This document shows, piece by piece, positions 1-4,394 of a stretch of 6,151 nucleotides of DNA. Location: positions 1 through 6,151 of the forward strand of contig JAISVE010000118.1 in NCBI GenBank assembly GCA_031271725.1, read 5' to 3'. Each line of letters begins with the position of its first letter. Positions within the stretch are counted from its first letter, which is position 1. The DNA comes from Bacteroidales bacterium (GTDB lineage Bacteria > Bacteroidota > Bacteroidia > Bacteroidales > P3). Made by a program: the position numbers and the translations under genes. The notes under the pieces were generated by a model. It was not told the origin of the DNA, searched no databases, and saw only the letters and a program-made list of their open reading frames with translations.

Positions 1-1400
1 CGGGCAAGGTTGCCAATCCAACGCAGGGCAATCATACCTGTAGAGCCATTGCGATGCTTAGCGATCTTAACATAACTTTTGCCAAGTGTGGAATTTCCCT
101 GTTCATCCTGCGTTATGCCATAGTATTCGGGACGATAAATAAACGACACTATATCGGCATCCTGCTCTATTGCACCCGACTCACGCAAATCTGAAAGTTG
201 CGGCTGTTTGTCGCCACCTCGCGTTTCCACCTGACGACTCAACTGTGCAAGTGCTATTATCGGTATGCTGAGTTCTTTTGCCAAGGCTTTTAATTGACGT
301 GATATCTGGCTTATTTCCTGTTCGCGATTACCGCCTTTTATGCTTACTCCACCCTGCATAAGTTGCAAATAGTCGATAAATACCGCTTCTATTTTGTGTT
401 TTTGTTTGAGGCGTCTGCACTGTGCACGAAGTTCGTACATTGTTATAGCGGAACTGTCGTTTATGTAAAGGGGAGCTTCTCCAAGCACCGCCGATTTTTC
501 AACAAGACGTTCCCATTCCATCTCGGAAAGTTCACCACGCTTTAATTGTTCACCCTTTATTTCCGCCTCACTCGAAACAAGGCGTTGTACAAGTTCTACT
601 GCAGTCATTTCAAGGGAGAAAAATGCAACAGGGCGTTTAAAATCAATAGCCATATTACGTGCCATTGAAAGTGCAAAAGCAGTCTTACCCATACCGGGGC
701 GCGCCGCCACAATAACAAGGTTACCTTTTTGCCAACCGTTTGTAATTCTATCCAACTCGGTAAAACCTGACGGAATACCGCTCATAGAGTCCTGCAATTT
801 GCTTACTTCCTCAATATTTTCGCGCACCTGCGATATAAGCATTCGTATATCCTGATACTCGTTGTGGAAGTTGGCATCACCTATATCAAGCAGTTTTTGC
901 TCGGCACGGTCAAGAGTCTCAATAACGTCAGCGGTTTCGGAAAATGCCTCTTTCGTGATTTCCGCTGCCGTCTTTATAAGTTCACGCTGAATAAATTTCT
1001 CCTGAACAATCTTTGTGTGGTATTCTATATGTGCAGATGACGAAACCCTGTTTGTGAGTGATGATATGTATGCCGCTCCGCCTACTGCTTCGAGTTCGCC
1101 GTTTTTTCTGAGTTGTTCGGTTACGGTTAAAATATCCACGGGGCGCGATGTTGCAACAAGAGTTTGCATTGTCTTAAATATCGCTTGATGTTCGGGAAGA
1201 TAGAAAAAATCAGGTCTTAGAATATCCCCTACTGATATTTGGGCGTTTTCATCAATCATAAAAGCCCCAAGTATCAAGCGTTCTACTTCCACTGCCTGCG
1301 GAGTGAGTTTGCCCTGTTCAAGATTTATTCTATCTGATAATGGGGTTGAGAATGCCCCTCTTATAGCGTTTTTACGTGTTGTTTGTGTTGTATAGTCCAT
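1..1400 (-). CDS. dnaB: Replicative DNA helicase DnaB (3' end cut by window edge)
   Basis: This is the hexameric ATP-dependent helicase that unwinds DNA at the replication fork and interacts with primase. Translating from the ATG at 1398-1400 gives 466 uninterrupted residues with no stop before the window edge, so the extreme C-terminus (probably a few dozen residues) is missing. The N-terminal DnaB domain covers about residues 34-135 (VEVERLILGAFMID, then the LRPDFFYLPEHQAIF block). After a linker, the RecA-like domain starts near SGIPSGFTELDRITNGW. Walker A is ARPGMGKTA with K239/T240, the catalytic glutamate lies in FFSLEM (E264), and Walker B is FIDYLQLM with D343. Further on are the LAQLSRQVE and SDLRESGAIEQDAD blocks and the KHRNG arginine-finger region (R450). 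The first 30 or so residues are a basic/polar extension typical of Bacteroidota versions. It has its own promoter just upstream and seems separately transcribed from the preceding operon. The domain order and every motif fit DnaB; a phage or plasmid copy is less likely given the housekeeping neighbours. Confidence 0.97.
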   Translation of the reverse strand, partial: MDYTTQTTRKNAIRGAFSTPLSDRINLEQGKLTPQAVEVERLILGAFMIDENAQISVGDILRPDFFYLPEHQAIFKTMQTLVATSRPVDILTVTEQLRKNGELEAVGGAAYISSLTNRVSSSAHIEYHTKIVQEKFIQRELIKTAAEITKEAFSETADVIETLDRAEQKLLDIGDANFHNEYQDIRMLISQVRENIEEVSKLQDSMSGIPSGFTELDRITNGWQKGNLVIVAARPGMGKTAFALSMARNMAIDFKRPVAFFSLEMTAVELVQRLVSSEAEIKGEQLKRGELSEMEWERLVEKSAVLGEAPLYINDSSAITMYELRAQCRRLKQKHKIEAVFIDYLQLMQGGVSIKGGNREQEISQISRQLKALAKELSIPIIALAQLSRQVETRGGDKQPQLSDLRESGAIEQDADIVSFIYRPEYYGITQDEQGNSTLGKSYVKIAKHRNGSTGMIALRWIGNLA

Positions 1401-2972: not shown

Positions 2973-4394
2973 CTATTTTCCCAGCAATCTAAACATTTCC
3001 TTTTTATATGCCTCCACACCCGGCTGGTTAAAAGGATTTACACCAAGAGTATAACCACTCAAACCGCAAGCATATTCAAAAAAGTAGATAAGTCCACCAA
3101 GCGTATGCTCATTCAAAACAGGGATTTCAAAACGAATAACAGGCACACCGCCCTGCTCGCTGTGCGCCATACAGGTTCCTTCTTCCGCCTTTGCATTAAC
3201 GTAAGATAAACGTTTGCCCGCTACAAAATTCATACCGTCCGCATCATTATCTGCGACCGGAACTTCAAGAGTATGTTTTTGGCTGTTAAGCGACAATACA
3301 GTTTCAAAGAAAAACCTTTCACCCTCCTGAATATATTGCCCAAGCGAATGCAAGTCGGTAGTAAAACCCGCAGACGAAGGAAAGATACCTTTATTTTCCT
3401 TTCCCTCGCTCTCGCCAAAAAGTTGCTTCCACCATTCTATAAAATAAAAAAAACGCGGATCATACTGTACCATTAACTCCATTTTTTTACCTTGACGGTA
3501 AAGAGTATTACGCAGCAAAACATATTTTGCGCAAGAGCAGTTTTCAAAATCAGGCTTCTCAACACGCACTTTTTCACGCATTTCGCAAGCACCCTGCACA
3601 AGCGAAGCCACATCTACCCCAAGCACTGCAAGCGGAAAAAGTCCGACAGGAGTGAGAACGGAATAACGTCCGCCGACATTATCGGGTATAACATAAGTCT
3701 TGTAGCTCTCTTGAGTTGCAAGCCCTTTTAATGCACCACGCTCCTTATCAGTAATCGCCACAATACGCTTTGAAGCTTCTGCCGCTCCGTATTTATCAGT
3801 AAGATGTTTGCGCAAAATGCGGAATGCAATTGCGGGCTCGGTAGTTGTGCCGCTTTTCGAAATTACGCATATTGTATATTCTTTACTGTCCAAGTACGGC
3901 AACAATTCCGCAAGATAGTCCTCGCTCAACTGATGCCCCGCATAAATAATTTCAGGAACTCTTGATTTACCTGCATTATTATTGGGAGCCTTTAAAAACT
4001 CAGAGGTCAAGGCACGCGAGTCGAGTAAAGCGGAGTTATCTAATGGATAATGAGCATTTACGAGATGAGGCGTAACGCAGAGATTTGAGGAATTTAGAGG
4101 CTCCTTATTGCGGAAGAACGGCTTCAACGCTTCTTCTACCGCACGAGTACCAAGATAAGAGCCACCGATACCGATGCAAACAAGCACTTCGCTTTTAGCA
4201 CGAAAATCAGCAGCAGTATCTTTAATATCTTTTAGAAATTCGGGAGTAATTTCAACAGGCAAATCTACCCAACCGAGAAAATCATTACCCTTGCCGTTTT
4301 TATTGTAGAGTTCGCCGTAAGCGCGGGTTACATCTACTTTAACAGCATCACTACCGGCAATATTACCGATATGTTTAAGGTCAAGATTTATCAT
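2973..4394 (-). CDS. pgi: Glucose-6-phosphate isomerase carrying an in-frame mobile-element insertion
   Basis: Cytosolic Pgi interconverts glucose 6-phosphate and fructose 6-phosphate in glycolysis and gluconeogenesis. The start is the ATG at 4392-4394, overlapping the transporter stop (ATGA). The frame stays open 33 codons further upstream, but those residues overlap the transporter gene and do not resemble Pgi. The 473 residues include GIGGSYLGTRAVEEAL (75-90), the phosphate-binding SKSGTTTE (179-186), the signature DNVGGRYSVLTPVG (238-251), GESEGK with probable catalytic base E328, TDLHSLG with H349, and the C-terminal signature YTLGVNPFNQPGVEAYK with K464. All catalytic landmarks are intact. 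Residues 96-137, between the SIS-domain helix and IIYAGH, are encoded by a 120-bp palindromic element plus one copy of its target duplication. Without them the protein would be about 431 residues, near the roughly 445 I recall for Bacteroides homologues, and the local spacing would match. The insertion lies between the core blocks, probably in a surface loop, so activity is likely retained. Confidence 0.96.
   Translation of the reverse strand: MINLDLKHIGNIAGSDAVKVDVTRAYGELYNKNGKGNDFLGWVDLPVEITPEFLKDIKDTAADFRAKSEVLVCIGIGGSYLGTRAVEEALKPFFRNKEPLNSSNLCVTPHLVNAHYPLDNSALLDSRALTSEFLKAPNNNAGKSRVPEIIYAGHQLSEDYLAELLPYLDSKEYTICVISKSGTTTEPAIAFRILRKHLTDKYGAAEASKRIVAITDKERGALKGLATQESYKTYVIPDNVGGRYSVLTPVGLFPLAVLGVDVASLVQGACEMREKVRVEKPDFENCSCAKYVLLRNTLYRQGKKMELMVQYDPRFFYFIEWWKQLFGESEGKENKGIFPSSAGFTTDLHSLGQYIQEGERFFFETVLSLNSQKHTLEVPVADNDADGMNFVAGKRLSYVNAKAEEGTCMAHSEQGGVPVIRFEIPVLNEHTLGGLIYFFEYACGLSGYTLGVNPFNQPGVEAYKKEMFRLLGK
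3979..3984. repeat. Target-site duplication, left copy (TTATTG)
   Basis: TTATTG directly abuts the left terminal repeat and is identical to the six bases abutting the right one, the expected product of a staggered-cut insertion. In the protein these bases contribute to the asparagine run N138-N139. Confidence 0.8.
3985..3996. repeat. Left terminal inverted repeat of the pgi element
   Basis: GGAGCCTTTAAA pairs with the right-hand end at 11 of 12 positions; the single difference is T versus C at the eighth base counted inward. Confidence 0.85.
4093..4104. repeat. Right terminal inverted repeat of the pgi element
   Basis: TTTAGAGGCTCC, reverse complement GGAGCCTCTAAA, mirrors the left end. Confidence 0.85.
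4105..4110. repeat. Target-site duplication, right copy (TTATTG)
   Basis: The second TTATTG lies immediately outside the right terminal repeat. Deleting the element with one copy gives coding-strand CGC AAT AAT AAT GCA, a clean R-N-N-N-A junction in Pgi. Confidence 0.8.

Follow-up and report, generated by a model that had tools for sequence, protein, structure and literature searches.

A MITE-like palindrome probably inserted in frame into the glucose-6-phosphate isomerase gene of a Bacteroidales bacterium

Stem-loop repeats located near gene ends include the SPRITE/terminator-like repeats and the REP elements, and protein-coding palindromes have reportedly been found in Wolbachia. The Rickettsia palindromic elements (RPE), in the passages available from two papers, are about 105-150 bp long and palindromic, carry terminal inverted repeats, and lie in frame in conserved protein genes (PMC10969869, PMC2229807); one Rickettsia count, as excerpted, places nearly half of the RPE copies in ORFs (PMC10969869). 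MITEs, including BrickBuilt of Porphyromonas gingivalis, are likewise short, with inverted ends, short AT-rich duplications, and high copy number (compared here by description, from excerpts of PMC5771137 and PMC10969869). Four candidate structured RNAs of 80-132 bp (HMP2_4205, HMP2_1065, HMP2_1032, and HMP2_4078) are palindromic and come mostly or wholly from Bacteroidetes, and three of them are predicted terminators, according to the available part of the source (PMC8040213).

The window analyzed here is the whole 6,151-nucleotide stretch of contig JAISVE010000118.1 from a Bacteroidales bacterium, and it carries a palindromic element inside the pgi gene. Like the RPE as excerpted, this element is palindromic, has inverted ends, and lies in frame in a conserved gene. 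It differs in that the host belongs to another phylum and internal coding copies are rare (one among 202 other copies, versus nearly half in the excerpted Rickettsia count); moreover, the resemblance of the Bacteroidales palindromes to the RPE is one of behavior, with no sequence link claimed, and the two coding copies use different frames of the element. In contrast to MITEs and BrickBuilt as described, copies with unlike ends here have a conserved double-motif hairpin core in common, and compared with SPRITE and REP the Bacteroidales family is longer (about 120-165 bp), sense-oriented, and built on an asymmetric conserved core. By description in the excerpted source, the HMP2 palindromic RNA candidates may be the same family (PMC8040213). 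The portions of the open-licence PMC literature consulted describe no palindrome that codes in frame in Bacteroidota, and core strings sought in paper text gave nothing relevant among the matches listed. We propose, with considerable confidence, that a MITE-like non-autonomous palindrome, one of a family widespread in Bacteroidales, entered pgi by transposition and was tolerated in frame.

The palindrome inside pgi

The insert-bearing pgi gene (2973..4394, minus strand) encodes a glucose-6-phosphate isomerase of 473 aa, as identified by Pfam PF00342, homologue alignment, structure match, and frame analysis; the ORF list also allows the frame to start farther upstream, at a TTG. PhoU_div, PHO4, Pgi, LemA, and TPM-domain proteins are among the minus-strand products that a domain scan found in the window. 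A minus-strand coding stretch within window positions 1-1400 seemingly runs off the window start.

The original prediction had described a palindrome with 11/12 inverted ends inside pgi, an abutting perfect TTATTG duplication, and a 126-bp insertion that keeps the frame, and all three were borne out. The inverted-repeat scan, model R1 (below), frame, and fold delimit an element of 120 bp (3985..4104, minus strand), the core sense being that of the pgi strand and the translation in the pgi frame starting from codon 97. Its terminal inverted repeats of 12 nt, GGAGCCTTTAAA on the left (3985..3996) and TTTAGAGGCTCC on the right (4093..4104) in plus-strand coordinates, are 92% (11/12) complementary. 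A 6-bp direct repeat, located by sequence reading and a direct-repeat test, abuts the element at 3979..3984 and 4105..4110; it reads TTATTG, or CAATAA in the sense of pgi, and could alternatively represent a 5-bp duplication with one lost G. Palindrome plus one duplicate amount to 126 bp, or 42 codons, through which the pgi frame is open. The conserved core extends from GCGTTA to GCCTTG with the inner pair TGCTCA/CTCCGC (4008..4078, minus strand), the motifs having been placed by reading against a 16-copy alignment.

The surrounding 500-bp region contains a single inverted repeat of at least 11/12 that spans 80-160 bp in total and is abutted by a perfect 6-bp direct repeat; 300 dinucleotide shuffles of that region contained none. 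The element folds with a z of -2.75 as DNA (2/200 shuffles equally good) and, in the mRNA sense, at -28.6 kcal/mol with a z of -4.24 (0/200 shuffles equally good). Rfam returned no match at E<=1 in window positions 3800-4300. A simple scan for intrinsic terminators (a GC stem followed by a T-run, short loops only) made no call at the element, its one weak site (4163-4176; shuffles mean 0.2) lying outside.

Homology searching scored 7999 Pgi homologues, and 20 of the 119 others among the matches listed were aligned. Checking residues 96-137 against relatives, as the original prediction proposed, found the 42 insert residues absent from all 20, including the five closest (78-80% identical); a search with Pgi residues 94-139 gave 2 candidates, with the window's own protein as the sole scorer. 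Without the insert, the loop reads R-N-N-N-A-G-K-S-R-V before P-E-I-I-Y, and in the relatives it is about 7-14 residues long as read from the 20-relative alignment. Because this length varies, the empty site is resolved at the protein level and not to the exact base; the empty site anticipated in relatives is thus there in the protein, whereas the site with a single CAATAA is beyond resolution at these distances. One close relative (P0004) carries a glycine-rich extension of its own at the same position, from which the loop appears to tolerate changes in length.

Sense frame 1, which is that of pgi, is the sole open one of the six in which the element can be read. The AlphaFold model of the window Pgi (21-row alignment) has a mean pLDDT of 84.1 and is mostly confident outside the insert; its sole segment with pLDDT below 50 comprises residues 97-144, the insert plus the loop, between helix 78-90 and strand 148-152. 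The best solved structure match, 3ifs_A, aligns with query residues 18-96 and 144-473 and not across the insert. As modeled, Pgi gains from the insert a seemingly flexible loop of 42 residues.

The closest relative in the genome contig collection is the Bacteroidales MAG Kf353_bin105 (L001), whose sample we take to be termite gut. Excluding the insert, pN/pS between the two pgi genes is 0.20 over 425 shared codons, indicating constraint, and since this value mostly averages the time before the insertion it is no proof of present function. The other 431 pgi codons contain no stops and no frameshifts, and the alignment-invariant residues, including R243, E328, H349, and K464 (presumably catalytic), are present. 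A real insertion into a pgi that is on its way out, with Pgi dispensable or inactive in the lineage or strain, would be compatible with the insertion proposed here at the DNA level. The insert looks young, since the palindrome is sharp and the direct repeats are retained, and with one open frame in six a lucky open outcome is not rare, both of which suit a dying gene; the 431 undamaged codons, the invariant residues, and the mostly confident model outside the insert argue against one, and we consider such decay unlikely.

The palindrome family in Bacteroidales

When the element (query 120-132 bp) was compared by BLAST with 149 genomes from the family of the nearest relative, two short matches came up, one of them a family member (L083, genome G060), and this partial match was the entry point to palindromes with a common core. 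The short, chance-like matches L081 and L082 (G001) and L084 (G008) were rejected as copies. No near-identical copy of the window element was found by BLAST in the 149 family genomes, phages, and plasmids; phages and plasmids also gave no match to the element of the second coding copy (L184, below), and viral contigs gave none to the exact 19-mer. The nearest genome, G001, had no family match among the scored candidates (23 and 11).

Two exact core patterns matched 13 times in 4 of the 149 family genomes and 12 times in 5 of 295 genomes of an order sample, with 0 matches for the reversed-pattern control in each; one of the 12 (L102) was read as chance. In the alignment of 16 copies, window included, the motif pairs GCGTTA/GCCTTG and TGCTCA/CTCCGC are nearly fixed and mostly non-pairing. 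The stems between the motif pairs covary, with double changes at 19 of 30 pairs in this alignment. Paired cells reach 91.0%, a share that falls to 74.9% in shuffles and to 34-48% (maximum 48.1%) in slid versions; the comparison with slid versions is a favored one because this alignment also supplied the structure. One of five covariation measures, "further pair types", was not above shuffles (38 vs 35.0; 66/500). Copies outside those 16 show more motif variation, such as GTCA/CTCC.

A covariance model, R1, was built from the 16 rows, and the score of the window copy (81.2 bits) is not independent evidence because that copy is among them; the exact-pattern matches are independent. R1 found the family in 15 of 149 genomes of the nearest family sample (E<=0.01), in at least 81 of 295 genomes of the order sample (E<=1e-6), and in 6 of the 16 genomes to which earlier loci had led (E<=0.001). 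Copy numbers are lower bounds, since only 23 (149-genome survey) or 11 (295-genome survey) candidates per genome were scored. Among the 16, Marinilabilia salmonicolor JCM 21150 (G442) contains at least 149 copies (149 of 150 candidates scored), two MAGs at least 87 each, an Alistipes MAG at least 36, and two genomes one; the remaining 10 gave no copy, including those behind Alistipes sp. dk3624, Bacteroides cutis, B. muris, B. heparinolyticus, Parabacteroides distasonis, and Symbiothrix dinenymphae. Some of the M. salmonicolor JCM 21150 copies (loci L240, L246, and L270-L289) form close opposite pairs, as at L286 (1001-1127 on the plus strand and 1160-1286 on the minus strand).

Around the same core the arms differ and, read by eye, are terminator-like with A- and T-runs, GTGTGATAAYGGGC-like, AGTGCTTGCAAG, or GGGAACCTCTAAAAAC. 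The window ends, GGAGCCTCTAAA...TTTAAAGGCTCC, resemble the GGGAACCTCTAAAAAC type. That type abounds in G453, a MAG (Kf353_bin76) to which L054 belongs and which shares its sample prefix with L001. Ends of the form GGGAACYTCTAAAAACT, which resemble the GGAGCCTCTAAA of the window, gave 154 matches there with no more than 1 mismatch, against 0 for the reversed control, and a core within 150 nt was lacking at 5 of 30 ends checked. Of 18 copies with pattern-fitting ends, 11 lie between direct repeats of at least 4 bp, versus 18.7% of mismatched pairs; 5 of the 18 have no direct repeat, one of these being cut by a contig end. For copies with window-like ends, the direct repeats are mostly 4-5 bp or none, versus 6 bp in the window. 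Perfect 6-bp repeats occur at 6 of 7 G238/G315 loci of the AGTGCTTGC type, with a control (8/54) that is high because the targets are TA-rich, and 3 of 4 Marinilabilia rows, two of which are one copy, have direct repeats of at least 4 bp (control 2/12).

By its core motifs and covarying stems, the element is placed in a large and diverse Bacteroidales palindrome family. Terminal inverted repeats, a target-site duplication, and dispersed multicopy relatives, none near-identical, are the features by which it is MITE-type. The original prediction named two outcomes that would tell against it, residues shared by relatives and a lack of other copies, and neither was seen: the aligned relatives lack the residues, and other genomes of the Bacteroidales do contain related copies. 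The likeness among copies is one of core motifs, fold, and end type, however, and not of near-identical sequence.

Positions of the copies and a second coding case

Copies were surveyed in two sets. The first, 155 model rows minus eight duplicates or neighbors, holds 147 copies, mostly from the nearest relative's family; the second, 63 rows minus eight, holds 55, or 56 with L291 added (Marinilabilia, G453, and others). Both sets without L291 make up the 202 other copies, which were listed or fetched, are not a random sample, and are not independent events because many loci are orthologous between related genomes (G050, G060, G072, and G012).

In the first set, a same-strand frame of at least 100 codons ends in the first 25 nt at 98 of the 133 copies with room and an opposite-strand one at 3; shifting the test to eight other positions gives 4-9 and 3-12, respectively. 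Gene ends in the second set are at 13/45 on the same strand and 3/45 on the opposite strand (shifted 0-2 and 0-5). The pgi copy has the same sense relative to its gene as the gene-end copies. At L083-L097 and L110-L239, stop codons of the upstream genes often fall within the first bases of the left arm of the palindrome, so that a protein may take its final codons from the arm. The sense bias of the family at gene ends could stem from selection for an RNA function or from targeting.

If the family were a 3'-end RNA element (terminator or stabilizer) and not a transposon, the pgi copy would be a stray. Such a role would suit the many arms with A-runs and T-runs and the first-set copies, 98 of 133 at same-strand gene ends and 3 opposite, but the second set has only 13 of 45 there, direct repeats flank copies of two end types, and copy number rises to at least 149. 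Terminator function and mobility are also mutually compatible, and we judge that the family is quite unlikely to be an RNA element in place of a mobile one.

Of 203 family copies, 75 have no open sense frame. A screen for frames open for at least 40 codons on both sides passed nine copies besides the window, which were then filtered by Pfam and reading. Eight of these (all but L184) were not counted as coding, having no Pfam domain and resembling antisense or chance frames; the Pfam scan covered one of the two L181 frames, the L134 frame has masked letters, and the lack of a Pfam domain does not equal the lack of a gene. In-frame copies inside a recognizable gene thus number 1 in 202 others, L184, whose protein has UvrD_C and PDDEXK_1 domains, one on either side of the insert, and whose copy is translated in a different frame of the element from that in pgi. 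The G050 orthologue (L291) has the insert, and the G060 and G072 orthologues do not (protein-level empty sites). G453 copies taken by their ends, which partly overlap the second set, include 0/20 that are in-frame coding, and recurrence in many genes of one genome was not seen among the 202 copies in other genomes, with their single case. A protein search with the L184 insert peptide returned 0 of 19 candidates at E<=10, its own protein included, and says little because that gene is absent from the database.

Vertical inheritance of the L184 insert in two species was rejected, as dS and sliding identity indicate that the 3' part of the G050 gene, insert included, is G012-like. Over the 42 codons of the shared insert there are 7 nonsynonymous changes versus 1 synonymous change, giving no sign of peptide constraint. 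The UvrD/PD-(D/E)XK gene of G050 (L290-L293, aligned 1-kb stretch) is a mosaic with a G060-like upstream part (0.94-0.98), and it is G012-like from the palindrome onward; because of this mosaic, the coding palindrome seems to have been moved by recombination. The analogy with RPE made in the original prediction holds for in-frame, stop-free copies in conserved genes (pgi, L184/L290, and L291) and fails as a description of the family, for which coding insertion is not a habit.

The probable insertion into pgi and its meaning

The insert in pgi has an anatomy of its own, is absent from the aligned relatives, has a core related to the family, and keeps the frame open, all of which supports the predicted in-frame coding insertion of a transposable palindrome. 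An assembly chimera or misjoined repeat, in which the assembler pasted the palindrome into pgi, could be suspected from the single short contig (6151 bases, listed as the longest contig of its source) and from the tendency of high-copy palindromes to break assemblies; a misjoin is not expected to leave an insert that abuts a perfect 6-bp duplication, has a length divisible by three, and lies in the one open frame, and with this anatomy in 0/300 shuffles the explanation is very improbable. That the insert is a lineage-specific, immobile protein loop with coding DNA palindromic by chance, for which only the variable loop length in relatives speaks, is hardly credible given a core that matches a multi-genome family by motifs and covarying structure and comes with inverted ends and direct repeats.

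For the favored transposition into pgi, the palindrome would have been moved by an enzyme acting in trans, and we know of no autonomous partner of the Bacteroidales palindrome family. Insertion would have duplicated about 6 bp of an AT-rich target, and selection would remove out-of-frame insertions in needed genes. This one may have stayed because, together with its duplication, it is a multiple of three, entered in the one stop-free frame of six, and lies in a length-variable loop between helix and strand, and the isomerase probably still works despite a disordered loop of about 42 residues. As a speculation that we hold to be doubtful, the two motif pairs, read single-stranded in nascent RNA or ssDNA, might steer a mobile hairpin sense-wise into the 3' ends of transcribed genes, the pgi and UvrD/PD-(D/E)XK copies being surviving in-frame misfires.

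With a glycolytic enzyme of a Bacteroidales as one case, another gene as a second, and a defined parent family across the order, the frequency with which mobile DNA turns into protein becomes testable beyond the intracellular Rickettsia and Wolbachia. The parent family itself, with its many sense hairpins behind stops and its two fixed motif pairs, calls for an explanation as a feature of Bacteroidales transcripts. If true, steering by the motifs would make the family a novel type of mobile element in Bacteroidota, guided by structure and directed to the ends of transcripts.
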